From contig NC_089460.1 in the NCBI RefSeq assembly GCF_026210795.1, forward strand, positions 930,001 to 994,000: DNA of 64,000 bases, read 5' to 3'. A model generated the notes under the pieces. The model made no database searches. It was not told where the DNA came from and saw only the letters and a program-made list of their open reading frames with translations. Positions 18,020 through 47,110 of this stretch are shown in pieces. Numbering within the stretch: position 1 is the first letter of the stretch; every line of letters starts with the position of its first letter. The DNA is from Rhizophagus irregularis (taxonomy: Eukaryota > Glomeromycota > Glomeromycetes > Glomerales > Glomeraceae). Both the position numbers and the translations under genes were made by a program.

Positions 18020-18985
18020 GATGTTTAAAAAAATGTGAAAATTAGAATAACTCGGCAATAGCGATCGATAGAAGACAAGCAATAGCTCATTGTAATTGTA
18101 TCAAATCAAGACAATGTAAAATAATTTTTCTAGCCCTGGCTGATCACGAGATAATCAATGCTAAACAATTTTTAAGAAATTAGCGCTAGAATCATATCTA
18201 TTAATCCTAAAGAAATAACCTTGGCATCATTCGATAGATCTTAATGAAACAAATCTAATGAGCCTTTTTTTATTTTTTTATGATCATTACATAACGAGTT
18301 ATCTTAATTTTCACATTTTTTTTAAATTTTTGAATATCAAAAAATAAAAATTCTGATCTAAGATATAACCCATCATCTACTGATTGCATTGGAATGATCT
18401 TTGGCTCATTAGAATCGTCTCAATGAGACGAATTGAATGACAGTAAAATCATGTCTTTAGCATCAGTATATCACGAGATAAATCATGCTAAGCAGTTTTA
18501 GAAAATTAGCATTAGAAAGGGATTTATCAGTGCTAGAGATATGATCTTACCGTCATTCAATTCATCTCATTGAGACAGTTCTAATGAGCTAAAGATTATT
18601 CCAATGCAATCAGTGAATGATGGATTATATCTTAGATCAAAATTTTTATTTTTTGACATTCAAAAATTTAAAAAAATGCAAAAATTAAGATAACTCATTA
18701 TGTAGTGATCATAAAAAAATGAAAAAAGGCTTATTAGATTCATCTTATTAAGACCTATCGAATGATGCCAAGGTCATTTCTCTAGGATCAATAGATACAA
18801 TTCTAGCGCTAGTTTCTTAAAATTGTTTAGCATTGATATCTCATGATCTATTGAAGCTAGAGAAATGATCTTACTACCATTCAATGCGTCTCGATGAGAC
18901 TATTCTAATGAGCTATTGCTCATCTTTATACTATTACTGGTTGCTGAGTTATTCCAATTTTCACATTTTTTCTTAAAATAAAATA
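18020..18985. repeat. Long imperfect palindrome, arms ~470 bp
   Basis: The left arm (about 18020-18490) is repeated in reverse complement on the right (about 18505-18985) with scattered mismatches, centred near 18499 (GCTAAGCAGTTTTAGAAAATTAGC region). Each arm contains shorter dyads, including TCGTCTCAATGAGACGA and GCTAAACAATTTTTAAGAAA TTAGC. It would form a very long hairpin if transcribed. Confidence 0.85.
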
Positions 18986-19395
18986 GAACTGAACTGAACC
19001 AAACGGTTCCAATTCTAAAATCAATCTGAAAACCAAACTGAATTTTTGGTCAGTTTCGGATTGGTTTCTGGTTCAAACTGGAACTATTTGGAGTTTTATA
19101 TAAAACTTTATTTTTTTTAGTTTGAAACATTTCTAATGTTTCTTTTATTTTTTATAGGTCAGGACTTTTAAATTTTAAATCATCAATTTGAAACATTAAA
19201 ATTTAAAAATAGTAAGTTTTGTTGCGAAACTTTACTATCTTTTTTTATTTTTTTATTAATTAAACATTTCTTTTCATTTTTTAGAAATAATTGTTTTTGA
19301 ATATTCAAAAACTTTTTTTTTATTTAATTATATAAATTTAATTAGACAATATATATTAATATAATTATTGTATTTTAGTTCAATCAGGTAAGAAT

Positions 19396-20004
19396 TATAT
19401 ATGAAACTGAAATTGGTTAATTTTGACCTCCAAAATGGTCGAAATGGTTGAAATGATTTTGACTTGAGCCCCTCCAAAAGTCAAAATGGTCGAAATTACA
19501 TCATAGTCATATGATTTTATAGTAAACAATAATATTAAAATTCAAAGTTAACGAACTCCGCATCCAGTGATTCGACTTTTATGATCTTTACATGGTTGGA
19601 TTTAGCTCATTGAGAGGATTTCAATGATATGTATTTCATATTTGTAGCATTAATATTGACGGAGTTATTCACGTTTAAAATTTGGTATTAAATAATCTTA
19701 TAATTTTTATAGTAAACAATAATTTTAAAATTCAAAGTTATCGAACTCCGCATCCAGTGATTCGATTTTTATGATCTTTACGCGGTGGATTCAGCTCATT
19801 GAGAGGATTCCAATGATATGTATTTCATATCTGTAGCATCAATATTGACGGAGTTATTTATGTTTAAAATTTTATATTAAATTATAATTATACAAATCAT
19901 ATGACTATGATGTAATTTTGACCATTTCAACTTTAATTTCAACTTTTGACCTTCCCAAGTTGAAATATTTCTACTTTTGGGTTTTAATTTCGACTTCATA
20001 TATA
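19396..20004. mobile_element. TIR element, 8-bp target duplication, internal direct repeat
   Basis: Ends TATATATGAAACTGAAATT and AATTTCGACTTCATATATA form inverted repeats. The target GTAAGAAT is duplicated exactly at 19388-19395 and 20005-20012. The interior has two direct copies of a ~190-bp unit (about 19510-19685 and 19700-19870), each containing GCATCCAGTGATTCGA and AGCTCATTGAGAGGATT. It is inserted at a GTAAGT-like boundary of exon-like array 1. Confidence 0.85.
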
Positions 20005-20264
20005 GTAAGAATGGTTGCCAAAACTATTTTTTCAAAATTTTAGTTTAGTCAAAATTTAATTTGAAACTATTTTTTATAATAAACTTAATTGCTAAAACTG
20101 TTTTTATGCTTTTCTGAAACTAATTATAATTTAGAAAAGTTTTGAATTTACTAATTTTTTCATTAAAAATAAAGTTTTTGAATTTCAGATTTTTGAATTT
20201 TATTGTTAAATAAGTTTTGGGTAGCAACGCTACAATTAAGTGATTGTCAAAATCACATTTCCAC

Positions 20265-23200
20265 AGGGCCCCTGAATACATATATAATGACCTTGTCGTA
20301 CACTCAGGCTAGATTTTTTTGTGTGTTCATCGTACAGTTACACAATTTGCCTTTTTTGATGGTATTGTGGCTTGACGTTCGAAGTACACTTAATATGATT
20401 ATCAAAAATTTTTTGTTGTACGGTTTATATTAATCTAAGATCAATTCGTAGTACATGACATAAAGAATCGATGTATATGATGTACAATTGAATATAGATT
20501 TGTAGTACATATGATGTACGCGTTATATAATATTTTTATGGTTAGCAATTATAATTTTTTTTTTCAACGTTCTTTGTTTTAAATGTTTTAAATGGAAGAA
20601 AAAACAGCAACAGTGAAACGTAAAGCTTATGTACAAACAAAATTGAATTTTCCTGTAAAAGTAAATGATAGTCCTTCCACAGAGAGAAAGATACAAAAAG
20701 ACAATTCTACACTCTTTATAAATGCTAAACAGGCAATAAAACCAAAAGCCCAAATTAAAACTCAAAGTAATCGAAAGATACCGATACTTGGTGAATTCTT
20801 AAAAGATCCAAAATTAGAAAAACTTAGTAATAATCAAGTTTATTGTCATTATTGTGATACTGGAACGCCTATTACTTTACATCGGATTAATGATGGCTAT
20901 CGATTATGGCAGCATCTTGAAACAAATATGTATAAAGATAACATAATAAATACTGAATCAAATCCTTCCAAAAAACTTCGTACCACTTTTCTGAATTTTG
21001 AAAGTAAACGAAAAGAAACTTTAAATACAGGAATGCATTTAGAATCATCAGGAAAAGGTAATTATTTAATTATTTAATAATGTTCAAAGAATAAAAGTAA
21101 AGAATCTTATCCAAATTCTCTATTTTTAGTGTGCCATGGTTTTTATTCTAAATCATTTGCAGCATTAAGCACGATATGGAACATCAACAGATAAATACAA
21201 AATTTTACGTGATGATAATCTTTTTGATAAAAATGTTAAGGCACATGGATATATCAAAAGCAACGAATGTGAAGGTTATACAACATCCAAATATTGTTCC
21301 AAATGTGGTATTTTAGCACAAATGGATGCTGTACAAAAAAGGAATCGACGTTATCGAACTTATTGCACAAATTGATTGTTTGTTTTTCCTGAAAGAAGGT
21401 CAACCAATACCTGCAAGTATTATTTCTCAATTTGGAGATAGTTGGGCTCAATACGATATCAAAAAGCTGCATGAAACAATAATTACTTCACTTAAACATC
21501 GACCTGGACATACAAAATCAACAGAATTACAACAATTATGCACATATGTTGAAAAAGAAGTATCAGATCATTCCTATTATGTAATAGTTAACAAATATCC
21601 AGCACTTGGACGTATTATTGAAGCAGTTGAGACCCATGGGCTTGAGAATTGGGTTAGCCAATGTATAACCTTTTTAATTGACAAAACATTGGAAGAAAAT
21701 CGACCTATATTTGTTGGAATGGCACAAGCTGTAACAAAAGTTATTGATAAATTGCAACGTGGTGTAACTTCTATGAGAGGAATTGGAGAGTATCATGAAA
21801 GTTTTATTGATTTTTTAGTTGTGCTTATGTCTATTAGCACTTTAGCAACACGTTGGCTCACAGCAAATTTGGCTGGACCAACAATTCGATTTTTACGGCA
21901 TAAAAGAAATGAATCAGATATTTATTATAATATATATGGAATAAATACATCAAGTTTTCCAGATATTATTACAATGTGGCGTAAAGCATATGATTATGCT
22001 GGTCCTACAATATGTGCAAAAGATCAAACAAAAGTTGCAGAATTGATTGAAGTTTGTAAACAGCGGCAAAAATGGATTGGATGTGTGCTATTGAAGATAC
22101 TATAATTCCAACAACAATGACAATAGAGGAACTTCATAATAAAATTAGCAATTTTAAAAAAGCAACATATATTACAGTTTATGCTCTTTCAGCTTGTATT
22201 CCTGGAATACCGCCAATTGTGATTGCTGTCAATCCGTCAGACCAAACGGAAAAAGCAGAAATTAATACACATGATAACAATTTAATTATGAGAGAATTAA
22301 ATCGTGCAGGAGCTATGACAATTGGTTTATATTTTGATGGTGCTACTCTTGATCGGAATTGGTTAGGTGAAGTTTATAGCGAAGATCCAACTTTTACTTG
22401 TGAACTTGCACTTAAAAAGGTAAGATCTTTAATAAAAGATTTTAAATAGCAATAATTAAAATGGACTTTTTTTTATTAGAATACTTCTATATTCAGTAAA
22501 ATGAAATATCCTATAGCCTTACATTTGATGGATAATTCATTACCATTTATTTGTGGAACGGATATTTATCATTGTGTGAAAAAGGGTAAAATATTGTAAA
22601 TATATGCTGTAATTATATTTGATTTTATATAAATAAATTTTTATTTGATTATTAAGGACGAAATATGCATAATAGTGAAACAAGAGTGTGTCCAATTGGA
22701 TATTACATTATGTCTACTGAACATTTGTGGATTTTAAAAGAAAATTCTGAAATTTATTCAGGTTTAACAAGTAATATTCTTAATCCTAAAGATAAGCAGG
22801 CAGATGAATCAGCTGAGAGATTTTTTTCATCATCTGTTTTAAAAGGCAAGTAAAATGTGAAGTAATTTTAGTTAAAAAATACAATTAATAATTTATTTAT
22901 TATTCATAGGCTTTACAGATTATTCTGTGAAAAATAATGATGACGAAATGTATGGTGACACTTGTTACCATTTTTTTTGTGGAATTTTGTTCGAATCATG
23001 GAAATCACATAGCATGGCCCATATAGATCGTGTAGGATTTGCTTGGGACGCATGCATTTTTTTTGCAGGAGTACAACATTTTTTAAAAGCAAATCAAGCC
23101 ACGTGTAATGGAAATAAATTTGGAATATCTTGGCAATCATGCGATGATTTTATCTATCTGGGATTAACCTTGATATTATTAATTCAACAATGGCCAAATT

Positions 23201-25137
23201 TTTATTCAAATTATCCTTTATGTCCGTGGATGATTTCTACTGCCTTTCTTGAGCATATATTTGGCTGTGCACGATGGATTATTGAAGATTTTACCGTACT
23301 AGATTTCTTATCAATGAATGAAAAAATTTTAAAAAATATTATGATTGAAATGAAAGGTTAGTAATTTAACTAAAACTTATTAGTTATTTTAAAAATAATT
23401 AAATTAATTATATATATAATCTTAGGTGATTTAATCAGACCAGATAATAATGATAGTTATAATATCAAATTATCCACAGTTAAAGAAAAATTGCCAAAAA
23501 ATTTGACGGATTTTCCATCAATTTTTGATATTGATAATATGATAGAAAAGGTATATATTACATTATTATCTTATATTTATCCATCATTTATTATTATTAA
23601 TTGTATGTTACTGAAATTTTAGACTTCGTATGCTATGAAAATTATACTTTGCAGTCTTGGCATAGTAGTAAATAAGGAAATTTTTTCAGAATTAATTCAA
23701 CAATCCTTACATTCACTTAAAAAAATAAATAATCATAATATACCTATGGAGAACACAAGTGAAACTGATGAACTTGAGGGTGAATCAGAGGATGAATTGG
23801 ATAATGAATGTGATATTGGCAAATTGCTCACACGACATCAACAACGCATATTGAATAGATCCAAATTTCCTGAACATCTTGACGTTCCTAATAATGATTT
23901 AGATGAAATGGATAATGAAAATACTCAATCAACTTTGGAACTGGATTTTGAGGATAATTTTTTTGAAAAGATAAATAAGGCATTTGGAAAAACTCATGAA
24001 TTGAGTCCATTAGCAATAATGCAAGCAATGTCATATTATCGAGGTAATTTGAATTTAATTTTTTATTATTCTTTATTTTCAATGTTTTAATAAATTATTT
24101 GATACTTTAGAAAAATATGATTACTTTACTCAAAAGGAAAAGAAAAAAGTTGGAAATAAAGCTACACTCAATAAAAATAATCTCACAGTAGTCACTGAAC
24201 TAGGCACAATGGATATTATGGCTGCCGTTCGTCAGAACCGATTAAGTAATACTGAACATCAAGCAAGAACAAAAGGACGAATTACACGATGGAAAACTGC
24301 ATGCAAAAAGGTCTTTGATTCCACAAAAATAAATCCACAATCATCTAAATTCAAAAGAGGAGATTTTTATTATTATTGCGAAAATAGTCATTCTATTGTC
24401 ATTGCTGAAATTATTGCAGTATTTGAGGTAAATTATTTTAAATTTTTATTATTTTTACTAAATTTTTTTATTATTCTTCAAAATTTATGGTTTTTTTACA
24501 AATTTAAGAAACATGGATCAAGCTATGTTCGTGTAGATTTATTATCTGGTTTAAACGAAGGAAAAATTCATGCACGCTTGTATGATCTCAAGCCAGATTC
24601 AGCATGTGAATTTATTCCGATTATAAGCAAAGACCGTACACAATTCACATGTGAGTCTAATCCATTTCGTTTCATTGCACATTTGGGTTCTGTATTAGAA
24701 GAATATCATGGTACTTCTCACTGGTTAGGAAAAACACTAAAATTAGGAGATCTTCAATATGCGACATATTTCCATTTTGTTGGAAAGTCCTGCGAACTTG
24801 AACAATCCATTAAAGAAGCAGAAAAAATAATGCGGATGAGAAAAAATAATGCTAATTCTAACGATGAATAGTTTTAAAATAGTTTTTTTTCCTTCTATAA
24901 CCTTTAGTAGTACATGTGATTTATCAATAAACTTTTGTCGTACATTGTATTTGCTTTTGATTCAACTTTGTCTGTACACTCTATTAGAACGCAAAAATTA
25001 TATATAAATTTATGTAGTACATTTAATAATAAATTTTAAAATATATGTACACTCTTTATTAAAATTTTTATGTACACTTATTATAACTGTCAAGGACGAG
25101 GTTTCATATATGCGCCACAGTGGCATTCAGGGGCCCT
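20265..25137. mobile_element. 4.9-kb TIR DNA transposon, 8-bp target duplication
   Basis: Perfect 13-bp inverted ends AGGGCCCCTGAAT / ATTCAGGGGCCCT at 20265-20277 and 25125-25137 are flanked by exact duplicates of ATTTCCAC (20257-20264, 25138-25145). An uninterrupted relative of the target occurs at about 28441-28500, which confirms the ends. GTAC-containing motifs cluster inside both ends (eight or more at 20295-20522, six at 24905-25080). It carries one frameshifted transposase gene. An 8-bp duplication and AGGG termini fit hAT-type elements, but P- or KDZ-type elements also duplicate 8 bp, so the superfamily is left open. Confidence 0.92.
20592..24871 (+). pseudogene. Transposase of the 4.9-kb element, frameshifted
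   Basis: Coding blocks at 20592-21056, ~21130-21350, 21326-22105, 22072-22449, 22665-22850, 22927-23358, 23635-24042 and 24209-24871 read as one product of well over 1,000 residues, with several GT-AG introns between them. A Cys/His segment (CHYCDTGTPITLH) and SNECEGYTTSKYCSKCGIL suggest DNA-binding fingers near the N-terminus. Candidate catalytic acidic residues are in PTICAKDQTKV, IGLYFDGATLD and STAFLEHIFGCARWI. Frame changes near 21165, 21330 and 22075 (an A-run) break the reading, so it is probably dead. I recall similar proteins in fungal genomes but cannot name the family securely. Confidence 0.75.
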
Positions 25138-25145
25138 ATTTCCAC

Positions 25146-26090
25146 CTTATTATGATTATATCACTAAGGGTATTATATCAACGGAAATTTAGTACATTGA
25201 TTGCTTAAAATCTACAACAATCCAATTATAATAAGAGGAATTTACATTAGATAATGTATTTGTATTGATATTGTATTTTGTAAATAAATTTACAATATTT
25301 TAAATTAAATTTTATACAATAAAATATATGTTAATAAATTAATACTACATTATTAATGATTATACAATAACTAAAAAATATAATTACTAATTTGCTATAT
25401 GCATTTTTAATATCAATATGCATGTTTTTATATATTGTTATATACATTTTTAAACTGTTGTTATTTTACTATGTGTAGCTTTATACTTAAATGAATATTA
25501 TTTTACATATTTCTAAATATTTTTATAAGTGGCGTTGATTGATAAAGGGTTCATTTCCTTACATTTTTTGGAATTGAATAACACATAGTATTTTTCAATA
25601 CTTTATACATCTGTTTAAAATTTTCTGATATATATAGATTTATATTAGACAATATATACTTTGCTAAAAATGACACTTTTTTTGGCATATATTTTTAATG
25701 TTTTGGTACTAGTGTTTCAGAAGTATTTATGTAATTATTATATTATTTTGTAATAGTAAAGTATATTTGTATTATTTTTGTAATGTATTTCAAAATAGTT
25801 TACAAATAGGTTACATATAACAACAGAAATATTGCAAACTAAATAAATTGATATTAGTTTTCTATAATTACAACATTATTTTGTAATGGTAAATTATAAT
25901 TGTATTATTTTTGTGATGTACTTCGAAATAGTTTATGAATAGATTACAGATAATAATAGAAATATTACAAAATAAATAAATTGAAATACATTTTATATAT
26001 TTGCAATAGTTATGTATTATTTCAGAAATAAATTTCTTGAAATATATTTACAATACTTTAAATGCATATACAATTATATAAACTGAGACT
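25146..26090. repeat. Dispersed A+T-rich repeat that received the 4.9-kb transposon
   Basis: The segment starting CTTATTATGATTATATCAC and running through TTAGTACATTGATTGCTTAAA matches 28469-28650 closely. The left part of the same repeat is at about 20238-20264. Further on, a stretch with ATGTGTAGCTTTATACTTAAA resembles 49385-49500. No gene is visible; the function of this repeat is unknown. Confidence 0.6.
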
Positions 26091-26299
26091 TTGGTGAAAA
26101 AATCACCTGACTCTAATCGATCTGCACAAACAAATCTGTTTTTTTTTCACATCCTTATTGTTAAAAATAACAAAAAAAAGAGATAATCATAAACTTCGTA
26201 GTCACGCTCAATTAAGGCAATGTATTACTAGACCTACACTAAAGATGACTTTAGTAAGGCTTTTTTTTTTGAATTAAAAGAAACTTCATACACTTTGCC

Positions 26300-28000
26300 A
26301 GCTGATGGGATAGCTTATGACCTCTAACTTCGTAAAATTTTTTAAATTTTTAAGCATTAAATCGGTAAGTTTATAAAATTTTTTGTATAATAAATATTTT
26401 TTTTTCTCTCTCACATTATTTGCATTTCTGTAGCATTTTTATTATTATTATTTTTTTTTACCTTTTTTTTTCTCTTCTTTTTTTTTCCTTTATGTATCAT
26501 AGTGCATCATTTTACATTTTCATCTTTTTTCCCCATATTTATACTAAAAAACCTGCATTGCTAATAATTAATTAAATATTAAAATATTTTTTTTTTTAGT
26601 TGTTTTGTCATTTTGTGATAGTTAAGTATATCAAAAACGTAATTGCAGAATTTTGAGTAAAAGAAAAAAATAAAAAAAAATAGTTTATTTATGATTAGAA
26701 AGTTTAAATAGTTTAAATTTTAATTTTGCGTTATAACAATTTTTAAAAAATAGACCCTGTTTAATGTCACGTATAACAGATAGGCGTAGTTCAATGATGG
26801 ATAATCTTTTCTTTTAAAAGCTTAAGTTTAATGTCTTTCCCACTCTTTCTCCTTTATTAATTTTTTTTTTCACATTGACGTTAACAAGCTATTGAGTATT
26901 TGAGTATGAATAACTGATAAAAATTAAAGAAAATGAACAAAGTTCCTAATGATTCAAAATTAAGAAAACTGAATATCTCACAAATAGTGTTCTTAGGTGA
27001 GTTTTTTTTATTTTTATCAATTTTTTTTCTTTTTTTTCGTTTTATATAATAATTTTCTTTTTTTTATAGGTTTATCTTCATTTCGGCCTTTAGATATAAT
27101 ATAGTTGGCAAAACAAGCAACATTTATTATTCATGAAGTATTTCAAGCTACTCAAAGGATTTTTTTAATGGTATTAAATGGAATATTTTCAAAATATTAT
27201 ATTTATTATCCTTGTAACACTTGGAAATCAGTAAGTGAGCAAAAATATGTGTGAGGTTTTGGGCTTTTTTAAAAGAAATTTATTAAATAAAAAATTAACA
27301 AACTTTGGAATTTTATTTTTCCAGGTAACTCATTCTTTTAGATGGCTGATACGGTACTTCAAATTTTTGAAATGTGGGATTTTGATAAGGAAAGACAAAG
27401 TAGTTTTTTTTTTGACACGTGGACTTTGGTAATTCTTTTTAATTTTTAATTTAATGAATGAAAGGTTATGAATCATGATTTTTAAATTATTTTCAGTTTT
27501 TTAGGTGACTTTTTCGGGGTCTTTAGGCATGCAAATTACGGTATGTTTTTATATTCTTAGACTTTATATATTAACGTAATATTAACCTATTGATTTCATT
27601 TTTGTTATTTTTTAGATGGTCTTCAGCTCTTTGGACGCAAGTTTTATTTGGTAAGATATTTTTTTTAATTCTTTTCTTTAACATTAACAAATGGTTACTC
27701 ACTTTTTTTCCTTTTATAGATGACTTGCTCTTCAATCAGTTTTCATGGATATATATTTTTGGACGCGAATTTTGCAAGTTTTTCTTTGATTTTTTCTTTT
27801 AACAAATGAATGATTGCTAATATTCATTATATTTCTTTTTTCAGATGATTGGTTCTTCAACTTTGACTTCTCAGACATATAAAAACTTGGTAAGATGCTT
27901 ACTTTTTTTTAATTCTTAAACAAAACATTTTACTAACATTTTATTTTACTCTATTTTAGGCTGCCAGGCTTTGTATCTATTGAGAAAGTATAGTACATAT
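26300..28000 (+). repeat. Exon-like cassettes, array 2 (possible microexon gene)
   Basis: Short inserts of roughly 30-80 bases lie between TTTTTAG/TTTCAG/TTATAG and GTAAGA/GTATGT/GTGAGT motifs (for example 27616-27651, 27721-27780, 27845-27892, 27961-28060). Three inserts begin ATG and contain TTCTTCAA- or TCTTCAGC-like sequence, so they appear to be duplicates of one another. This could be a real gene with many tiny exons, or repeats that mimic splice sites. I cannot build a convincing continuous frame. Confidence 0.4.
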
Positions 28001-28440
28001 AGATATATTAATGGAAATATAGCCACTCAGTTTCTTGGAGTATTTGGACGTGAAAAATTTGGTAATAATGTAATAATAAGTTAATAATATTATGTAAAGA
28101 TTGCACAATTAATAAAATATTAATTAAAAACTATACAAAATCGTTACAAAATTTTGTATGATTATTCAGACTAATTAAAAAAATAATACAAAATCATTAT
28201 AAAACTATTGCTTAAGTAATTTAAATTTATTTCAAAATGCATTACAAACCCATAGAAAAATAATTACGAGCATGTTGAGATGAAATTATAAGCCTAGATA
28301 ACATGGTTGTAATACATTACAAAATATTTTTGTGGGTTTTTGTATGGTTTTAAAAATATAATACTACAAATTTATGTTACAAAAAGTATCATTTTTAGTA
28401 AAGTATTAATATAATTATCACATTTTAATTTGAAGAAAGA

Positions 28441-28652
28441 TCAACCAGGTGATTGTCAAAATCACATTTCCACCTTATTATGATTGTATCACTAGGAGCG
28501 TTATATCAACAGAAATTTAGTATATTGATTGCTTAAAAATCTATAGTAATCTAATTATAACAAAAGGAATTAATTTTACATACAATTTTATATTAGATAA
28601 TATATTTCATGTTGTACTGTATTTTACAAATAAATTTATAATATAAAATATA
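28441..28652. repeat. Second copy of the dispersed repeat (uninterrupted target)
   Basis: GTGATTGTCAAAATCACATT followed by TCCACCTTATTATGATTG reproduces the joined flanks of the 4.9-kb transposon without the insertion. Its continuation reappears at about 29985-30045 beyond another inserted element. Confidence 0.8.
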
Positions 28653-29980: not shown

Positions 29981-30373
29981 TAATCTAAAATATATATGTT
30001 AATAATATACAATAAAATATATGTTAATAAATTAATTAGTGTTAGCACTTGACTGTTTGGCCAGAGTTGGCCATTTGGCCATTTGGCCAGTTTAGCTGGC
30101 TAAACTGGCCAAAAAAATCTTTGGCTGCGGTCAAATGCCAATACGTTTTTATACATTCACTGGTTGAAATTAAAACTTTTGACTATTAAGAGCTTTTGGC
30201 ATAATTTTTACCGATTAGTTATGTGATTCGTCACATTTTTTGATCAATGACAAAAATCAGTAAAATTAATCACAAATCAACTAAAATTGATTTTTAAATG
30301 AAAACTTATTCAGTCTTTTAATGAAAAATCAACTTATACCGATTGTTATACAAAAAATTGTTCTTTTAATATC

Positions 30374-31065
30374 ACAGGTTGAAAAGTAAAAAATTAGACA
30401 TCAATCAGTCACCAATCAGACAGTTTGCTAACTTTTAATCTAGTGATCAAAAAAGGATGAAATATAGCTTATTGGAATCATCTCAACAAGACGAATCTAA
30501 TGGTAGTAAAATTGCATTTCTAGGATTAATACAGGATCCACTTACTTATAAAATAGGCTTTCAGGCTTAAAATAAAAATCATATATAAAATTTTTTTGCA
30601 GATCCTATTATAAAAGAAAATTTTATATTACATTATTATGATTTTTTTTCTTTTTAACTAATTAACCAATAGAATTTAAGAAAAAAGTAAGGTAAAAACT
30701 ATTAGTAAAAGGCCAATTTTCTTTATTATAAGTAAGCAAGATCCTATTAATACTTGATGAGAAATTAAATAAAATATAAAAATAAAAATATATTATTTAT
30801 GTTTCATTTATTTAAATTTTTTATTAACTATTAATCCTAGAAATGCAATTTTACTACCATTAGATTTGTCTTGTTAAGATGATTCCAATAAGCTATATTT
30901 TATCCTTTTCTGATTACTAGATCAAAAGTTAGCAAACTGCCTGATTGGTGATGGTATTTGGCAAAAATGCCAATCAGTCACACAATCAGTTACTAATCAA
31001 CTACCTGATTGGTAACCGATTAGTGACTGATTGATGCCTGATTTTTACTTTTTGACCTGTGAGAT
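30374..31065. mobile_element. Foldback element with CAGGTTGAAAAGTAAAAAAT ends
   Basis: The left end at 30374 and the reverse complement of 31035-31065 (CAGGTCAAAAAGTAAAAATC) match, and the inner arms match over about 150 bp, including the AGCTTATTGGAATCATCTCA core at about 30458 and its inverted copy at about 30850-30900. It is interrupted by the MITE 30533-30745. The upstream segment 30046-30373 contains repeated TTGGCCATTTGGCC and the palindrome TTGGCCAGTTTAGCTGGC, unassigned. Confidence 0.7.
30533..30745. mobile_element. MITE, AGGATC ends, 8-bp target duplication
   Basis: Ends AGGATCCACTTACTTATAA and (reverse complement) AGGATCTTGCTTACTTATAA are flanked by exact duplicates of ATTAATAC (30525-30532, 30746-30753). 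The interior shares about 80 bp, in inverted orientation, with the MITE at 37345-37570. No coding capacity. Confidence 0.9.
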
Positions 31066-32565: not shown

Positions 32566-32569
32566 ACTA

Positions 32570-32980: not shown

Positions 32981-32982
32981 TA

Positions 32983-36539: not shown

Positions 36540-37344
36540 TTATAGAAAAAATTTATTTAGAAAGCAAAATTATTCAAAAAAATCTTTCAATAAATAAATA
36601 ACTCTAGATATTAATAACGATATTTTAGCAAATTTAGATTATATATTGATTAGTTGTTTAATTAAAATCTATTTGATATTTATTATTGATTATTTTTCAG
36701 TTGATTTTTTTTCATTAAATTATTAAATATTCTGAATTTTGTAAAGTTTTTCTTTTATATTTTTAATAAACTAACTTTATAATATTTTTTTCCTTTTTTT
36801 TAGAAACTCCTTTTACTGGCTTCAGGTTAAAGAGGTAAATATTTTGGGAGAGATCTTAAAAGTTTTTTTATATATTTTTTGACATTTTTTCTTACGTAAG
36901 AACGGGTTTTGATCGATTTTAATCAGTACTATGCCACATAACTGATGATTGGCAAATTCTGCAAATCAGCGAATATGTTTTTAATAAATATTTTTAATAA
37001 AAAACATTTTTTTTTTATTATTTTTATTTAGAAATTCAGTTTTGGTATGGATATCATTTTCCTAGATAAAGTTTCAAAACTAAAGTTTTGAAACTTTTTT
37101 AATAAAATTTTTTTTATTTTATATAGGAAATCAGCTTCAACATGAATGCAATATTTTCAAAATTTCTTAAAAAAAATATTTATTTTAATGTTTTTTTTTT
37201 ATATTTAATTATAAGGATATCGTTTTAGCATAAATACCAAATTCTAAAGATAAATTTCAAAAAAAGAATTTTAAACCTTTCTTTAATAAAACATTTTTAT
37301 ATTAAAAACATTTTTTTTTACTATTTTTTATATAGGGATATCAG

Positions 37345-37570
37345 AGAACCCCGTCTACTACTAAGATATGTTACCAGTAGAAATTTCACTTTCATATGAA
37401 ACCTTACCTTAGGATTTGCTTAAATTCTATTGGTTAATTAACTAAAAAGGAAAAAAAATCATAACAATGTAACATAAAATTTCCTTTTATAGTAGGATCT
37501 TCAAAGAGTTTTATATGTAAACCTTACCTTAGATCACAAGGTGACCTATCTTAATAGTAGGCGGGATCCT
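37345..37570. mobile_element. MITE, AGAACCCCG ends, 8-bp target duplication
   Basis: Ends AGAACCCCGTCTACTACTAA and (reverse complement) AGGATCCCGCCTACTATTAA. The target is GATATCAG at 37337-37344 and GATATCAA at 37571-37578 (one mismatch). The interior is related in inverted orientation to the interior of the MITE 30533-30745. Confidence 0.85.
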
Positions 37571-38262
37571 GATATCAAATTTGGTATAGATACTGAATTC
37601 CAAAAATAAGTTTTAAAAAAATTTTAAAACTTAAATATAAAAAACATTAATTTTTAATGGCTTTTTATTTTTTTTGTAGGAATATTAGTTTTAGCATAGA
37701 TACCAAATTCCAAAGTTAAGTTTTAAAAAATTTTAAAATTTTAATAATAAAAAATATTAATTTTAACGTTTTTTTTATTTTTTTGTGGGAATATTAATTC
37801 CAGCATGGATACTGAATTTCAAAGGTAAATTTTGAAAAAAAAATTAAAACTATTAAAAAAAACATTTTTTAACTAAAAAATGTTTCTTTTTATTTTTTTT
37901 TTGTAAAGAAAATCAGTTCCAACATGAGTACTGATATTCTAGGTAAGTTTTGAAAGAGTTTTGAAACTTTATTAAAAAATATTGATTTTTTAACGTTTTT
38001 TTTATTATTTTATTGTAGGAAAACAGTTCTGACTTGAATACCAAATCCTATTAATAAGTTTTGAAAAAAATTCAAAACTATTAAAAAAAACATTTATTAC
38101 CATTTTTTTTTTATTATTTTATTGTAGGAAAACAGTTCTGACTTGGATACTGAATTTCATAAGTTAGTTTCAAAAAAAATCAAGACTATTTAAAAAATGT
38201 TTATTAAAGTTTTTTTTTATTATTTTATTGTAAGAAAACAGTTCTGACTTGGATATTAAATC

Positions 38263-38557
38263 AGGATCCTGGACATTACATATACAACTCAGTGGTAACT
38301 TTTTCGCAAATTGACCTAAATTTCACAAAAAAAAATCAGTTTTTTGCAATTATCTCGGCATCCAGTAGTTCAATTTGTATGAACTTTTTTTTTTGTTTTG
38401 TAGCTCTCATCAAGCTCTACAAAATAAAAAAAATCTGCATAAATCAGATTACTGGATACTAAGATAATCGCAAAAAACAGAAAATAAAAAAAAAGCAAAT
38501 TTGGTTTTTTTTTGGCAAAAAGTCAGTTGTGAGTTCTATAAGAGATGTCCGGGTCCT
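38263..38557. mobile_element. MITE/foldback, AGGATCCTGG ends, 8-bp target duplication
   Basis: Ends AGGATCCTGGACATTACATA and (reverse complement) AGGACCCGGACATCTCTTAT. The target is ATTAAATC at 38255-38262 and ATCAAATC at 38558-38565. The interior is a palindrome with ATCTCGGCATCCAGTAGTTC on one arm and GATTACTGGATACTAAGATA on the other, plus TGTAGCTCTCATCAAGCTCTACA at the tip. Confidence 0.88.
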
Positions 38558-39344
38558 ATCAAATCCCATAAGTTAGTTTTAAAAAAATTTTTGAAACTAT
38601 TTAAAAAAAATGTTTATTAACATTTTTTTATTATTTTATTATAGGAAAATAGTTCTAACTTAAATACTGAATCCTATAGGTTAGTTTGAAAAAAAATTGA
38701 AACTATTTAAAAAATGTTTATTAATTTTTTTATTATTTTATTGTAAGGAAATGGTTTTAACTTGAATACCAAATCCCATAGGTTAGTTTTAAAAAAAAAT
38801 TTGAAATTATTAAAAAAAATGTTATATTAACAATTTTTTTATTTTCTTTTGTAAAGTATCAATTGTTTCCTTAGATAAAGTTTTGATAGATTTTTGAAAT
38901 TTACTTAAAAAAAACTTTTTTAGCTAAAAAATGATTTTATATATTTTTTTTATAGGAAATCAGTTCCAACATAAATACTGATATTTTAAGCAAAGTTTCA
39001 AAAATTTTTAAAACTTCTTTAAAAAAAAATGTTTTATATTAAAAAAACATTTTTTTATTATACTTTTAGTAAAGAAAATCGGTTCTAATGTGGATACCAA
39101 TATTTTAGGTAAAGTTTTAAAATTTTTAAAACTTAGTTGACCAACCATTTCTTTACTTTTTTTGTAAGTTTCCCCTTTGAATTTTATCAGATCAGGTAAA
39201 TTTTTTACAAACCCAATTTTTTATTTAAAAAATGGGTTACTGTTCTTTTTTTTTTGCATTGGTAGGTTGTTTTCAGACTTTTATCAGGTTAGGTGAAAAT
39301 TATAGGTAAATGATGTATATAAATAATAGATAAATAATAATTTA

Positions 39345-40058
39345 ATTGCTGATCCACATGTGATCGATAGAATTTATATAATAAAATGCAGCGCAACATT
39401 TATATATAAGCCATGTCGATCATGTTTTTATATCAAACAAAATTCAACCATATTGTTATACAATTGCGTAATTTAACACCTGCAATATACGTTTAAGATC
39501 TTAGAAAAAAAAAATTTTTTTATAAAAAGTTTTTTTTCTTTGCAGTTTATAAAGTTTTATATGTAGGAAATAGAGATTTCATAGTATTTACTACTATTTT
39601 ACTTCTATGGTATAAACTCTTTAACTTTTCTTTGACGCTTATAAAACTTTTTTTGATTATTATTTCTGTCAACTATTACATTTTTAATAACACTACGCAC
39701 TTTTATATCTCTTTTTCTTTCACAAATATGTCCAGTTTATAAAAAATATGAATATAATGAAATATATGAATAATAAAAGGACTTTTATTAAGTTTTAGCA
39801 TAATTTCAAAATAGAAATAGTTATCTTGAATTTTTTTCTTAAAAAATAATAAACAAGTCATATAAATATGGACATAATAATGAAGTTCTGATATAATAGC
39901 ACCAGTTGCAACAAGTTTTTTGGGAGTTATATATGTATTTGACGTTGTTGTTTCTTGGGAAAACAGAGATTTCAAACGGCATTTTTTTTTATTAATTAAC
40001 ATAACGCCGCATTTTACTATGTAAATTCTATCGATCACATGCAGATCGGCAATTAATA
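39345..40058. mobile_element. TIR element with ~45-bp inverted ends
   Basis: The left end (TTAATTGCTGATCC, then CATGTGATCGATAGAATTTA, then ATAATAAAATGC) matches the reverse complement of the right end (TTAATTGCCGATCT, CATGTGATCGATAGAATTTA, ATAGTAAAATGC) with few differences. The target duplication is not resolved. A 111-residue minus-strand frame inside (39703-40038) starts within the right terminal repeat and has no recognisable domain, so it is not called a gene. Confidence 0.75.
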
Positions 40059-41467
40059 TGTAATTTTTAATAAAATAAATTAATAAAATTTAATCAATAA
40101 ATTGTTATTATAAAATTAAGAGATAATTTATATATCGCACATGTAATATCATCGCATCCTAATATATCATGTGATTTTTATTTTTTCAAATGATGTAATT
40201 GATGTAAATCTATGATTTAAAAATGATGTAATACTATATGATTAATAAGCTTATTTTTTTAGTAACAATTGTTTGTCCTCTCCTTTTTTTTCGCACAAAG
40301 CCACAAAAATAAAAAAAAAATGGCCAGTTTTCGTTACTGTAAATATTAAATTTTTTGCTTTAAATTTTGTCATTGAAAGTCACTTGGAATAATACTTTTT
40401 CAACTTTTTATCATACAGATGACGATTTTACTTTGAATGAAGATAAAAACAAAAAACTAATGAAAGTTAGTATAATATATGTTTTACATTTGTGGTTATA
40501 AACATATGAATTAATGTAATTTTATATAGGTCTGGAAGACTTTGATATGACTGTCCTTCCTATGGGATCTGTTATAGGTTCAGAATTAGAAAACTTTAAT
40601 GTATCTAAATATCCTTTATTAACTCAACCTGTAGAATTAGTTGTTAGTTCACGTTTTAGTTTTTGAAATATCGCTGAATATTATATAAAAGAGAATGGAA
40701 GACAGAAAGGTTTTATTATTAATCAGTATTGAGTTGAATATAGTAAAATACAGTCATCCAATACCACTGATCGAACTGTAAGAAAAAGAATATTTACTTG
40801 TGAGTATGCTGGAAAATACAAGCCTAAGAAATTAAAACCAATTGACTAGCAACGCAACAAAGAATATAAAAAGATGGATTGCAAATGGTATATTAATTTA
40901 AGCAAACCAGAAAGCAATAATTTTGTATGCATTACCTTCATACAATCTGAACATAATCACGAACTACTTGCTGATAATATAAGATTTGCTGCAAAATTTC
41001 AAAGGTTTGATCAATCTGTAATGAAGGAAATTGAATGTGCAGTTATATATGAACGATATGATGCTTACACTATAAGAAACTTGTTACAACCATTATTTCC
41101 CAACCAGATCTTTTTTACTCAAGATATATCAAATGCCATTCAAAAGATTAAACGCGAAAAACAGATTTCTGGTTCAGATGCATCTGTCTTATTAAAATTT
41201 CTTCTCAAACAACAAAAGGAAGAGCCAATGATGTTTGTACAGCCATTAATTAATGTTGATAGTAACAGATTGTGTGGCATATTTTGAATGACGGCAAATC
41301 AAATTGATTTATGGTCTCGTTACTCAGATGTTATTTTATACGATAACACTTCAAAAACTAATAAGTACAATTATCCACTGTCTTTATTTATACTAGTTGA
41401 TAATGATGGAAAATCATGTTTGGGAGTTCAAGCCTTTTTAAATGATGAAACACAGGAGAGTTATGAG

Positions 41468-41689
41468 AAGATCTCAAAAAATACATAAAAAGATTATATT
41501 TGAGTTTGCTTAAAAAGAACTAAAATTTTCATAAAAATCTTGCCTTTTTTTAGATAGTGCCAGCCTAAATTTTATTGTCCGTTTTGATACTGGCCAGCAT
41601 TATCATAATTCCAGCCCTGAAAAGTTGCTTATTTTAAGCCAAAATCTTGCCGATCATTTATAACCTCCATATGTATTTTTGGGGGTCCT
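41468..41689. mobile_element. MITE, AGGACCC-type ends, 8-bp target duplication
   Basis: Left end AAGATCTCAAAAAATAC and the reverse complement of the right end AGGACCCCCAAAAATAC are inverted repeats. Targets are GTTATGAG (41460-41467) and GTAATGAG (41690-41697). Removing it joins ESYE to WALQ of the MULE transposase, which confirms the ends. Confidence 0.88.
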
Positions 41690-43434
41690 GTAATGAGTGG
41701 GCCCTACAATAGACATTGGACGCAACAGGATCTAAACCAAAGGTTATTTTAATTGGTATGGATCCAGTTATAGATGCTGCATATAGAAATGTATATAAAA
41801 ATACCTATCACATTCATTGTATTTGGCATATATCTCAAAATTGCCAAAACGACTTAAAGCTAAACTTGGAGTTGTAAACTTTAAACAATTTGTTCATGAT
41901 TTCTGGAAAATGTAAAACTCATTATGTTTGGATGTTTTTGAGCAATGATTTCAAAATCTATTGGAAAATTATCCTAATAGTAACGAGTATTTGCATAATC
42001 CAATTTACTCAACACGACATTCTTGGGTACGTGCATTTATAAGCCGAATATTTACAGTTAGAATGCAATCAACACAACATGTTGAATCAATTAATGCAAT
42101 TGTTTATAAAGCTATTTCTTCTAGTTCAACTATGGCTAAAGTTGCCTGCCGAAATTAGGGAGTTTCAGCATGTTGAAATTGTCGAAATTGTCAAAACCTA
42201 AAAATATTACGTTTCACATAATAACTTGGCATCTAATGATCGTAGAATGATGCACCATAGCTCGTTGAAATCGTCTCATAATGACGAGTCAAATGGTAAT
42301 TAAATCATCTTTTTATTTTGCTATAGTTTTACGGCCAAGTCTCCCTTTACTTCTTATGAAGCATCATCGGACTAGTATCCTATCATCCTCAAGAGGTAAC
42401 CATACTACTGAGTACTTATTTTTCCTCAAGCAGACAGTACCATATATGAGGACATCCCCCATTGGGCCACATTTAAGGCTGATCTGAAGCTAGAAATACA
42501 CCGCCTACTTGTCCTTAAACCCATTGTATGATACTGGTATGGTAGCTGTCACCTATAAACAACAATAGTCCGAAATTTTGAAATTTATTTATTTATATTG
42601 TGTAACTTATGTTTTAAAGTACTTTGTCAAAATATTAATTGCTGCGTAAGCGGCAAAATTTTTTTTTTGTCATATTACATGGAATTCTTATGGATTTTCA
42701 TGGAATTTTTGTAAAATCCATAAAAATTACATGAAAACTAGTCCGAAATTTTATATTTTTATTATTGCTACTTATTAAAATTATCCAACTTTAACCCATA
42801 ATATTAATTAAAATTCTTATTAAATTCTATAAAATAATCCGATAGAAATGTTCAGTACATGTTGCTATATCATTTTATCAGTCAATTTACAATTTATAAA
42901 AATTTGAAGTCACTTAATATTAGTGTGGTTTATAGGTGACAGCCACCATACTCAATTTATTTTACGACCTTTAGAGAGCACCTACTTTCATGGAGGACTT
43001 TCAACAGGTAACATCAACCATCTAGTACCCTTCCATACCACCATTTTAGGTACGAGGAATCTTGCATCAAAGACCACTACAGTCTACCTTCACAAGCACT
43101 GATAGTACAGTTGTTTATCGTAAGTGGTATACTTTGGCAGTCATTCAGACGAGAAAGTAAAGCGAGTATGGTGGGTATCGGCCATCCAGGGATCAAATCA
43201 ATCAGGGACCCAAAAACACCATGACCCTTAGTTGAAATGTGCAGCCTAACTGTACACACTAATTCACCATGATGCAGTTCAACTACGCTAATCCCTATAC
43301 CTTCATGCTATTGGTTGTAGCATCTGCAGTAAAATTCGTTTAATTTCCGTGATTAGTGGAATTGAACCTGCGACCTGACACGCACTATACTCAGGCTTAA
43401 TGAGGGTCTCAGTCACTTACCACTGAGAAAGGGT

Positions 43435-43665
43435 GATCAACCCTTTAAATCATCTTTTTATGATCACTAGATGCCAAGATATTAAGCAAAACATCAAAAA
43501 TCGGCATTTTGTATTTTATGATACTGCGCTATTTGACGTTTTACTTAATAACTTGGCATCTAATGATTGTAGAAAGATGCACCATAGCTCATTGGAATCG
43601 TCTCATAATGACGAGTTGAATGGTGGTTAAATCATCTTTTTACTTTGCTAGAGTTTTACGGCCAA
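43435..43665. repeat. Palindromic core block
   Basis: A hairpin module carrying GATCACTAGATGCCAAGATA and its inverted copy TAACTTGGCATCTAATGATTG is followed by the AGCTCATTGGAATCGTCTCA module and TTAAATCATCTTTTTACTTT. The same block recurs at 42225-42330 (partial), 45340-45735 and 46700-47110. Confidence 0.85.
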
Positions 43666-45339
43666 GTCTTTTTCTACTTCTTATGGAGCATCATCGGACT
43701 AATATCCTATCATCCCCAAGGGGTAATCATACCACTGAGTACTTATTTTGCCTCAAGTAGATAGCACCATATACTGTATGAAGACATTCCCCATCGGGCT
43801 ACATTTAAGCGCCGATCTGTGGAATACACCGCCTACTCATCCTTAAACCCATTGTATGATATTGGTACTCAATTTATTTTACAACCTTTTAAAGCATTTA
43901 CTTTCATGAAGGACTTTCGATAGGTAGCATTAACCATCTAGTACTTTTCCATACCACCATTTAGGTACAAGGTCTCACTCAAAGGCCACTACAGCCTGCG
44001 ATTACCTAGCACCGATAGTACAGTTGTTTACCAAAGTGGTATATATACTAACTCGGACGGGAAGTAGTAGGCATATCGTTCAGTCACCTGCATGGCGGGT
44101 ATCAATCACCAGTGATCACTAACCAGGACCCAAAGAGTAGGGAATTGAACCCCCATAACCATGCTATCTGTTCTGTGCACAAACACCTTGGTTGGTCTAA
44201 GACCTAACAGAAAGTCTAACTACAGGACTGCGCACATGCCAATAGCCTCATAGGAAACGTTAGAAAGACACCATGACTCTTAGTTGAAATGTGCAGCCTA
44301 ACTGTACACACTAATTCACCATGATGCAGTCCAACTACACTAATCCCTGTACCTTCACGCTATTGGTTGTAGCGTCCGCAGTAAAATTCTTTTTATTTCT
44401 GTGGTCATGAGAATCGAACTTGCGACCTCACCATACTCAACCACCTATTGCCTCTTATGAGACTAATCTCGGGTCTGTGTCCTATCATCTTCACTGAGCA
44501 ACCATTATACCGAGTACTTAATTCCTTAGGCAACAGCACCACTATAGAAGACATCCCCATCGGGCAATTTTAGACTGATCTGAAGCTAGGTACACGCCGC
44601 CTACTCATCCTTAATCTATTGCATGATACTAGTACTCAATTTATTTTTACGACCTTTAGAGAGCATCTACTTTCATGAAGGACTTTCAACAGGTAGCATC
44701 AACCATCTAGTACCCTGCGATTACTTAGCACCGATAGTACAGTTGTTTACCCCAAGTGGTATACTTTGTAGTGACCATTTGGACAGGAAGTAGCAGGCAT
44801 CTGTTCAGGATCACCCCTTATGGCGCATCAACCACCAGGGATCACCAACCAGGATCCAAAGAGTAGGGAATCGAACCCCATAACCATGCTACCTGTTCTG
44901 TGCACGAACACCTTGGTTAGTCTAAGACCTAACAGAAGGTCTAACTACCACTAAGACATTGCACCCTCAGCTTTACCATTTAGAACGACCATCTAGCCAT
45001 TACTGACCTCAAGTGGTATTGTAGAGTGATTACCCGGACAGGAAGTCCCCCCTAAGGTATAGTAGTGACCTCAAGGACAGGACGGCGCACATGCCAATGG
45101 CCTCATAGAAAACGTTAGAAGGACACCATGACCCTTAGTTGAAATGTGCAGCCTAACCGTACACACTAATTCACCATGATGCAGTCCAACTACGCTAATC
45201 CCTGTACCTTCACGCTATTGGTTGTAGCGTCCGCAGTAAAATTCTTTTATTTCCGTGGTCATGGAAATCAAACCTGCAACCTCACCATACTTAGGCTTAA
45301 TGAGGGTCTTAGTGACTAACCACCGAGATAGGGTGACCA

Positions 45340-45735
45340 ACCCTCTTAAATCATCTTTTACGATCACTGGATGCTGAGATAATAGGCGAAATGTCAAACA
45401 GTGCAGTATCGTAAAATACAAAATGCTGATTTTTGACGTTTTGCTCAATATCTCGGTATCCAGTGATCGTAGAAAGATGATTTAACCACCATTCGACTCG
45501 TTGGTATGAGACGATTCCAACGAGCTATGGTACATCTTTTTACGATCACTGGATGCCAAAATATTAAGCAAAATGTCAAAAATCGGCATTTTGTATTTTG
45601 CGATACTGCATCATTTGACGGTTCACATAATAACTGGGCATCCAATGATCGTAGAAAGATGCACCATAGCTCGTTGGAATTGTCTCATAACGATGAGTCA
45701 AATGGTAGTTAAATTATCTTTTTACTTTGCTAGTG
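45340..45735. repeat. Palindromic core block, double copy
   Basis: Alternating hairpin modules: one with arms ATCACTGGATGCTGAGATAA and ATATCTCGGTATCCAGTGAT, one with GACTCGTTGGTATGAGACGA and its inverse, then both again. The SINE-like block follows immediately at a TTTGCTAGTGTTTACGGCC junction, as at 42330 and 43660. Confidence 0.85.
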
Positions 45736-46699
45736 TTTACGGCCAGACCACCCATTGCCTCTTATAAGACTAATCTCGGGTCTGTGTCCTATCATCTCCA
45801 TGGGCAACCATTATACCGAGTACTTAATTCCTCAGGTAACAGCACCACTATTGAAGACATTCCCCATTGGGCCATTTTAGGCTGATCTGAAGCTAGGTAC
45901 ACGCCGCCTACTCATCCTTAACTAATCCATTGCATGATACTGGTACTCAATTATTTTACGACCTTTAGAGAGCACCTACTTTCATTGAGGATTTTCGACA
46001 GGTAACATCAACCATCTAGTACCCTTCCATACCACCATTTTAGGTACTAAGTTTCATTCAAAGGCCACTACAGCCTGTGATTACTTAGCACTGATAATAC
46101 AGTTGTTTCACCCGCAAGTAGTATCTTTTGTAGTATTCTTCAGACAGAAAGTGCAGGCATCTGTCCAGGATCACCCCTTATGGTGGGTATCAACCACCAG
46201 GGATCACTAACCAGGACCCAAAGAGTAGGGAATCGAACCCCATAACCATACTACCTGTTCTGTGCACAAACACCTTGGTTGGTCTAAGACCTAACAGAAG
46301 GTCTAACTACCACTAAGACATTGCACCCTTAGCTTTACCATCTAGGATGACCATCTAGCCATTACTGACCCCAAGCGGTATCGTGTCGAATTCACCGGAC
46401 AGAAGTCCCCCCAAAGTATAGTAGCCGACTCAGGACAGCGACGCGCACATACCAAATGGCCTCATAGGGAACGTTAGAAACACCTTACGATTCCCCGGAT
46501 TGAAATGTGTGGTCTAACTGTACACACTAATTCACCATGATGCAGTCCAACTACGCTAATCCCTGTACCTTCATGCTATTAGTTGTAGCGTCCGCAGTAA
46601 AATTCTTTTTATTTCTGTAGTCATAGGAATCGAACTTGCGACCTCACGCTTCGAAGCTTAATGAGGGTCTCGTACTTAACCACTAAGATAGGTTGACCA

Positions 46700-47110
46700 A
46701 CCCTTGGTTAAATTATCTTTTTACGATCACTGGATGCTGAGATAATAGGTGAAACGTCAAATGGTGCAGTATCACAAAATACAAAATGCCGATTTTTGAT
46801 GTTTCGCTCAATATCTCAGTATCCAGTGATCGTAAAAAGATGATTTAACCACCATTCGACTCGTTGTTATGAGATGATTTCAACGAGCTATGATGCATCT
46901 TTTTACGATTACTGGATGCTGAGATAATAGGTAAAACGTCAAATGGCGCAGTATCACAAAATACAAAATGCCAATTTTTGATATTTCGCTCAATATCTCG
47001 GTATCCAGTGATCGTAGAAAGATGATCTAACTACCATTCGACTCATCATTATGAAACGATTTTAACGAACTATGGTGCATCTTTCTACGATCATTGGATG
47101 CCAAGTTATT
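46700..47110. repeat. Palindromic core block, right copy
   Basis: The same two hairpin modules as at 45340-45735, repeated, ending TTGGATGCCAAGTTATTATG just before the right terminal sequence of the composite. The left counterpart is at 42215-42330, in inverted orientation. Confidence 0.85.

Follow-up and report, generated by a model that had tools for sequence, protein, structure and literature searches.

Satellite-like central repeats have been described within non-autonomous elements of the Pacific oyster, Cg_HINE (PMC7492417). As in that account of Cg_HINE, the system reported here consists of tandem central modules with differing flanks in non-autonomous elements, dispersed together with them; however, the carriers described there are all of the Helentron type, whereas ours have four kinds of target duplication, and our module, hereafter the cassette, is palindromic and a retroelement target (PMC7492417). 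Several of the carriers (E1, E3, E5 and Tc1-like elements) are long, inverted and internally repetitive, like the foldback elements Tetris and Galileo, but in the descriptions of the latter the repeats belong to single families (PMC4079207, PMC3573991), whereas here the repeated unit is common to several kinds of elements. No description of the cassette was found in the literature consulted, which does not establish that it is unpublished.

Tx1L resides inside a DNA element of Xenopus, Tx1D. Target-specific APE-type non-LTR retrotransposons include those of the Tx1 and R1 clades (PMC4640811). Like the elements of these clades described in that source, the LINE found here has a multicopy target, a single position within it and a target duplication, and a sister copy matches an APE endonuclease; unlike them, it targets a cassette distributed across several families of DNA elements and shares its position there with a SINE-like element (PMC4640811). 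Unclassifiable repeats are given as 32% of the Rhizophagus irregularis genome (PMC8647823), from which the 64-kb stretch analysed here, the window, was taken.

The cassette and its carrier elements

The original prediction was that mobile elements with unrelated ends have a core sequence in common. With up to 3 mismatches, the core AGCTCATTGGAATCGTCTCA was matched 12 times in the window and never in 100 shuffles; genome-wide, with up to 2 mismatches, it gave 821 + 858 matches and the reversed pattern none, and prokaryote genomes held no exact match. Sharing of the core was confirmed, since the matches in the window and genome-wide lie far above the shuffled and reversed controls. A second hairpin had been placed next to the core. 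Both motifs are present (partner motif with up to 2 mismatches: 14 matches in the window, 0.10 expected), but they belong to a single discrete near-palindrome of ~115 bp, TAACTC-GGCATCCAGTGATC-..core..-GAGTTA, the partner motif being its ends. A profile of this unit recovered cassettes in E1, E2, E3 and E5 of the window and gave no match in reversed sequences and five shuffled windows. Cassettes occur singly or as arrays within their carriers, of which the first four in the window are listed here (strand given where assigned).

17661..19098: element E1, hAT-like by its ends (TAAAGCTC..) and 8-bp duplication, from sequence and 20 relatives
17653-17660 and 19099-19106: 8-bp duplication of E1, TATAAAAC
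17743..17986: nested element in E1, ends TAAGGTTGC.., 8-bp duplication accagaac, read by eye
18048..18103, +: first E1 cassette, diverged and weak (profile, E 0.3); full cassette here in the family consensus
18196..18301: E1 cassette (profile)
18366..18480, +: E1 cassette (core match and profile)
18520..18621, -: E1 cassette (core match and profile)
18691..18798: E1 cassette (profile)
18837..18951, -: E1 cassette (core match and profile)
19396..20004: element E2, 8-bp duplication GTAAGAAT
19554..19667, -: E2 cassette 1 (profile)
19744..19856, -: E2 cassette 2 (core match and profile)
30373..31061: element E3, ends CACAGGT..ACCTGTG
30429..30535, +: E3 cassette 1 (profile)
30826..30931, -: E3 cassette 2, inverted (profile)
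38263..38557: element E4, with a candidate cassette, strongly diverged, at ~38351-38465 (weak match)

E1 had been described as TA-flanked (17663-19096). It is flanked instead by an 8-bp duplication, which is exactly 8 bp in 12 of the 18 relatives that have both ends, among 20 loci. hAT elements are recognised by short inverted ends and target duplications of 8 bp, and by these sequence features E1 is hAT-like. Its window copy contains five clear cassettes and a weak one, the family consensus six; the nested element at 17743-17986, similar to a stretch at 47265-47501, is separate and outside the cassette system. The expected two direct copies in E2, with its 8-bp duplication, and two inverted copies in E3 were both recovered. 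An exact 3-bp duplication was found in 11/16 members of the E3 family, the window copy showing none. CMC elements produce duplications of 2–4 bp and have CAC-type ends; judged by its 3-bp duplications and CACAGGT ends, E3 is CMC-like. In E4 the profile match was weak (E 0.2 in the window), with two arm matches one cassette length apart, and is suggestive of a diverged cassette.

E5 holds six cassettes, as predicted; SINE-like inserts interrupt three of these, and retroelement inserts account for most of the element's length. The 10-bp duplication assigned to it did not stand: a duplication of 8 bp with one mismatch (actatggc/attatggc) fits better, and a reading of E5 as a MULE was dropped for this reason. 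Both ends are present at 5 loci, counting the window copy, and at 3 of these the duplication is exactly 8 bp, although similarity among the four non-window loci continues well into the flanks, as if a single insertion had been copied.

42137..47240: element E5, ends TAAAGTTGCCTGCC, 8-bp duplication with one mismatch
42222..42315, +: E5 cassette, split at profile position 94 (profile)
42316..43446, -: SINE-like insert 1, duplication AAATCATCTTTTTA (42302-42315 and 43447-43460)
43549..43643, +: E5 cassette, split at profile position 95 (profile)
43643..45347, -: SINE-like insert 2, same cassette position, duplication AAATCATCTTTT(T)A; longer, apparently multiple
45449..45560, -: E5 cassette (core match and profile)
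45631..45725, +: E5 cassette, split at profile position 95 (profile)
45725..46709, -: SINE-like insert 3, same cassette position, duplication AAATTATCTTTTTA with the cassette's own T on both sides
46812..46926, -: intact E5 cassette (profile), hairpin z -11.2
46994..47108, -: intact E5 cassette (profile)

Across the genome, eight kinds of non-autonomous DNA element carry the cassette; they differ in their ends and have target duplications of at least four kinds: 8 bp (E1, E2, E5 and X36), 3 bp (E3), TA (two) and TTAA (one). This supports the proposal of a core common to families with unrelated ends, and widens it beyond the window to eight element kinds. As also proposed, the core agrees where the flanks do not: the outer flanks are unalignable between families, mean between-family identity outside the cassette being 0.33 (blocks 0.28–0.41; shuffled flanks 0.309, sd 0.013 for the mean) vs 0.91 across the first five bases inside the edge. 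With edges defined by the profile trimmed by eye, 16/16 edges of eight representatives start TAACT, TATCT or GAACT, the two edges of one palindromic element being non-independent. The TA at the edge may be part of the palindrome itself. Extra conservation of the end bases was not retained as proof of transposition: it reaches 0.91 at outer edges, but over all cassettes the end bases show no higher conservation than the interior (0.63 and 0.67, at approximate offsets, as a length of 115 was applied to a 117-position model).

The cassette as a site of retroelement insertion

The three E5 inserts lie at one cassette position (profile 94, 95 and 95); retroelement insertion into the cassette had not been part of the original prediction. 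This site was carried by 20/20 SINE and 19/19 LINE junctions sampled, compared with 273/5000 random 26-mers. Upstream of the SINE, a cassette ending at profile position 88–99 was present at 12/20 loci, including one, L045, where a short LINE end and a rebuilt site separate cassette and SINE; at 7/20, head-to-tail SINEs are joined via the site, and at 1/20 the site follows other DNA. The LINE junctions are ranks 2–20 of a similarity list obtained with one cassette-inserted copy as query. Nine of the 19 directly join the cassette at positions 94–98 and the other 10 carry a piece of the site, an adjacent partial copy having been cut instead at rank 14 (L077). In this similarity-chosen sample, the LINE is target-specific, its copies occupying a single position within a repeated target.

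The LINE at L105 has a reverse transcriptase and runs into a 3′ end at a cassette (L081); its partial upstream frame has no Pfam match. A sister LINE (L042) has matches to APE endonuclease, reverse transcriptase and RNase H, the APE match being in L042 only. One sister copy is located at a site other than the cassette position, so the site preference is that of a subfamily. In the SINE-like element a B-box-like GGTTCGATTCC was seen by eye; ARAGORN found no tRNA at five loci and Rfam gave no match at E 0.1 at four. The SINE and LINE 3′ regions showed no significant similarity (best E 0.47), their last bases alone looking alike.

The junctions place the non-LTR retrotransposon and the SINE-like element at one position of the cassette, in either arm (..TCNTCTTTTTA^CGATC.. 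or ..TTTATCCTTTTC^CGATC..), so that the cassette now serves as a landing pad for both; as the mechanism we infer target-primed reverse transcription, which would generate the duplication of ~14–17 bp. This duplication restores part of the site and would so allow the head-to-tail towers observed.

Proposed entry into the families, and a test of selection on the cassette

The reading that we favour, with reasonable though not high confidence, is that a discrete ~115-bp cassette entered the families as a unit, spread by hitchhiking and now serves as the LINE/SINE landing pad. Entry would have been by a cassette or a block of cassettes, most probably through either insertion of a small nested palindromic element at TA sites or block copying between elements, and later spread would have occurred without selection on the cassette sequence where this was examined. 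Spacer sharing between E5 and the pogo-like elements (17.5–31.5, reached in 0–1 of 400 shuffles) and between E5 and the Tc1-like elements (19 and 21, reached in 0 of 400) indicates that blocks, and not single cassettes alone, are held in common, and suggests block transfer among these three; no block common to the E5 spacers was found in the E1, E2 and X36 spacers. In the cassette tree, the outer cassettes of the pogo-like elements fall with E5 (97/88) and those of X36 with E2 (100/95). Keeping each family's cassettes together was not rejected, however (pogo-like p 0.10, E1 with L007 0.27, X36 0.20), so each family may have been entered once, and repeated exchange was not accepted as proven by the tree.

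Alternatively, and here we are tentative, the cassette itself may be a minimal mobile unit: TA sites in other transposons would be entered either by a lone cassette or by a block with a cassette at each end, as in a composite transposon. A self-mobile MITE would have inverted ends and a target duplication revealed by empty sites. The cassette edges are sharp and bear TA, but searches for empty sites returned none: the exact gapped pattern of the TTAA family had 0 matches, and 0/40 scored matches for the pogo-like family (1123 candidates in all) span the joined flanks, the join being two bases short. The matches listed in the pogo-like search were mostly one-flank.

It is also possible, if somewhat doubtful, that gap repair or recombination copied arrays into the interior of another element, whose ends were retained, without any mobility of the cassette. 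The multi-cassette blocks common to E5, pogo-like and Tc1-like elements would fit such copying, as would the cassette types that cross families on the tree, though these crossings are not forced; a Helitron-like chimera in five copies (L124-L128), which contains half of a TTAA element and, of that element's cassette, the initial ~45 bp, shows that pieces get captured. Random copying would, however, cut cassettes variably, as in this chimera, whereas in all eight representatives the outer cassettes run intact up to their edges (16 of 16).

Selection of the cassette as a signal had been offered as the alternative to exchange. A protein-binding site, origin, promoter or hairpin RNA, selected in each family and re-acquired as an aid to transposition or expression, would account for the like length and edges across eight element kinds, but we consider it improbable. 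In E1, the one family whose copies were not selected by core match, cassettes are no more conserved than spacers over 21 copies (0.875 vs 0.884; difference -0.009, -0.027 to 0.010), so signal selection is unsupported there; the subfamilies go in opposite directions, a deficit in the 15-copy one (-0.023) and a slight excess in the six-copy one (+0.031; 0.001 to 0.064). In E3 the cassettes exceed the other non-terminal sequence (0.952 vs 0.896), but in copies selected by exact core match. When five single cassettes were folded, one was very strong (z -11.2), one moderate (-2.7) and three non-significant: a maintained hairpin is not general. No Rfam family reached its gathering score within the window. 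By eye the core resembled a tRNA D-arm, but derivation from a tRNA or by way of Pol III was rejected (none by ARAGORN or Rfam), as were microRNA precursors, the best of the weak Rfam matches (MIR841, 47.7 and 40.3 bits vs a gathering score of 200), which were ascribed to the long hairpins. The original prediction is supported in part: for core sharing between families, but not, in E1, for selection as a signal.

That all carriers form one ancient family with ends diverged beyond recognition is very improbable and already contradicted: 8-bp duplications occur in four of the eight kinds, and E2 and X36, which may be one lineage, have TATA-type ends, 8-bp duplications and one cassette clade in common, but duplications of 8, 3, 2 and 4 bp imply differing integration machineries, diverged ends do not explain near-background flanks that jump to 0.91 at the edge, and the copies tested did not resolve into one such family.

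The cassette and its retroelements would explain a set of the unclassified R. irregularis repeats and supply a rule for sorting them. Two questions become testable: how transposons that rely on different machinery come to have interiors in common, and whether targets carried by other transposons can sustain a site-specific retroelement. If the cassette were self-mobile, several superfamilies would be vectors of one nested parasite, itself a LINE/SINE target, in a three-level system.

A discrete unit shared by different transposons

It had been predicted that mobile elements with unrelated ends share a core sequence. Twelve matches to this core, AGCTCATTGGAATCGTCTCA, were found in the window (≤3 mismatches) and none in 100 shuffles, while its partner motif, GGCATCCAGTGATC, had 14 matches (≤2 mismatches) for 0.10 expected. 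The assembly searched (G000; 146.7 Mb, 32 contigs) contains 821+858 matches to the core (≤2 mismatches; reversed control, 0), 208+210 exact matches to GAATCGTCTCANNNNGACGARTYGAATGG and 255+258 matches to CTCGGYATCCAGTGATCG (≤1 mismatch), both with controls of 0. Alignment of 23 distinct examples, drawn from the window and from the assembly loci L001-L040, showed that core and partner form one near-palindrome of ~115 bp, TAACTC-GGCATCCAGTGATC-..-core-..-GAGTTA, the cassette. The cassette profile matched at full or near-full length in elements E1, E2, E3 and E5 of the window and over at least part of the unit in all 40 loci L001-L040, themselves retrieved with core patterns. No match was obtained in reversed sequences or in five shuffled windows.

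Cassettes found with the profile in the elements of the window
17661-19098, E1: five clear cassettes and one weak
19396-20004, E2: two cassettes
30373-31061, E3: two cassettes
38263-38557, E4: a weak match (E 0.2), with two arm matches spaced one cassette length
42137-47240, E5: six cassettes, three of them split

Both outer edges were compared using one representative of each of eight carrier kinds: E1 (as family consensus), E2, E3, E5, X36 (the element type of locus L036), a pogo-like element, a Tc1-like element (L005) and a TTAA element (L037a type). Between-family identity outside the cassette averaged 0.33 (0.28-0.41 in five-base blocks), a trace above the 0.309 (sd 0.013) of shuffled flanks. 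Inside, it was 0.91 over the first five bases and 0.41-0.81 thereafter. Two caveats apply: the profile that defines these edges was cut to length by eye, and in a palindromic element one edge is not independent of the other. All 16 edges start with TAACT, TATCT or GAACT. With all ungapped cassettes, too, identity stepped up on entering the unit (from 0.31 to 0.63) and down on leaving it (from 0.67 to 0.31), at approximate offsets. The edges, and carriers with differing target duplications, bear out the predicted sharing, in the form of a discrete unit; it is real and unusual.

Carrier ends and target duplications

Ends and duplications were read from copies, and fractions refer to loci with both ends located. 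An exact 8-bp duplication was present in 12/18 E1-type copies (20 loci examined), which had been thought TA-flanked, and in 6/6 copies of X36. For the E5 type, 8 bp (exact in 3/5; 6 loci) fits better than the 10 bp originally predicted, and the four E5 relatives in which both ends were located seem to be duplicates of a single insertion. The duplication of E2 was exact in 5/7 at scripted ends, with 8 identical bases in 7/7 when the flanks were listed. The remaining carriers have (i) an exact 3-bp duplication (E3 type, 11/16; 21 loci), (ii) TA on both sides (pogo-like, 5/5; 23 scanned), (iii) a 4-bp duplication (L037a type, 5/5: four TTAA and one ATAA) or (iv) a TA duplication seen at a single locus (Tc1-like L005, whose other assembly matches are partial only). 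The superfamily names are presumptive, following the general rules for terminal sequence and duplication length. With 40 candidates scored for each, whole-query matches numbered at least 32 for E2, 29 for X36 and 28 for L037a.

Two similar short elements of the window (47265-47501 and 17743-17986) have E5-like ends by eye; no cassette was found in them, and they are possibly module-free E5 relatives. Single diverged cassettes at L129 and L131, in contexts assigned to none of the eight carrier kinds, may be further carriers or isolated cassettes. The window also holds a 52-bp tandem array of ten copies (16125-16660), whose unit includes an inverted repeat (GTGAATTGCGGTATCGGAATTCAC), eight telomere-like TTAGGGA repeats in the contig interior (47793-47849) and, by eye, an exon-like frame for a putative PIWI part of an Argonaute protein (11601-12392).

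Possible exchange and capture; tests for selection

Among 68 cross-family pairs of between-cassette spacers, those of E5 resembled both pogo-like spacers (scores 17.5-31.5, reached in 0/400 or 1/400 shuffles) and Tc1-like spacers (19 and 21; 0/400); the pogo-like set does not include the inner spacer of L024. No likeness to E5 was found for E1, E2 or X36 spacers. An E3 spacer against one E5 spacer, and an inner pogo-like spacer against X36, gave scores reached in 3/400 and 2/400 shuffles, respectively. A tree was built from 86 cassettes, which remained of 172 once near-copies were removed; in it, the outer pogo-like group joined E5 (97/88) and the outer X36 group joined E2 (100/95). These groupings suggest repeated exchange of cassettes between families; a constraint keeping each family's cassettes together was not rejected (p 0.10, 0.27 and 0.20), and repeated exchange is therefore unproven.

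The exact gapped pattern of an empty TTAA element had no match in the assembly. For joined pogo-like flanks, none of 40 scored matches (1123 candidates) crossed the join; because the joined query was two bases short at that point and the list was filled by matches to a single flank, this argues only weakly against an empty site. Five copies of a chimera (L124-L128) combine a left-hand portion of the TTAA element, reaching ~45 bp into its cassette, with a presumptively Helitron-like 3' end, a GC-rich hairpin followed by CTAG. This is a capture that cut through the cassette.

The proposal that the core is selected as a signal was not supported where tested. The 21 E1 copies compared were selected for similarity to window 18000-19000 rather than for the core. 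In these, cassettes were as variable as spacers (0.875 vs 0.884; difference -0.009, -0.027 to 0.010), being less conserved in a 15-copy subfamily (-0.023, -0.038 to -0.007) and more conserved in a six-copy subfamily (+0.031, 0.001 to 0.064). E3 cassettes appear more conserved in 16 aligned copies, all but the window's picked by exact core. Among five cassettes folded as DNA, the hairpin was very strong in one (z -11.2), moderate in one (-2.7) and non-significant in three.

The cassette as a retroelement target

SINE-like inserts split three E5 cassettes, at profile positions 94, 95 and 95. Two are flanked by cassette-arm copies AAATCATCTTTTTA, one copy of which lacks a T; the third is flanked by AAATTATCTTTTTA with its T on both sides, and therefore it, at least, inserted independently. 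The assembly contains 132+143 matches to the 3' end of the insert (≤2 mismatches). Twenty copies were hand-spaced from the first 100 matches listed, a sample that omits about five copies known beside a core and includes two neighbours (L047 and L048). An upstream cassette ending at profile position 88-99 was found in 12/20 (in one, L045, separated from the SINE by a short LINE end plus rebuilt site), a head-to-tail arrangement with another copy via a site piece in 7/20 and a site piece after other DNA in 1/20.

A second, longer element, a LINE, ends at the same cassette position (L034, L035); its 3' region has at least 41 assembly matches, 40 of 345 candidates being scored. Locus L105, which continues into cassette junction L081, has a 1204-residue frame with reverse transcriptase. 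A sister LINE (L042:4194-7230; L063, L064; C5), encoding an RRM ORF1, APE endonuclease, RT and RNase H, occupies another site, flanked on either side by AATCACCAAATAT, and site preference is therefore a subfamily property. The same 13 bp flank another insert, near a pogo-like element's end (L037, ~1974-2290).

LINE junctions joined the cassette at profile positions 94-98 in 9/19, a site piece and then a SINE 5' end in 7/19, a site piece and a truncated SINE in 2/19 and a site piece and other DNA in 1/19. On recount, 20/20 SINE and 19/19 LINE junctions carried the site; among 5000 random 26-mers drawn from the fetched, cassette-rich loci, 273 did. The cassette is thus a target of retroelements, a second and strong finding.
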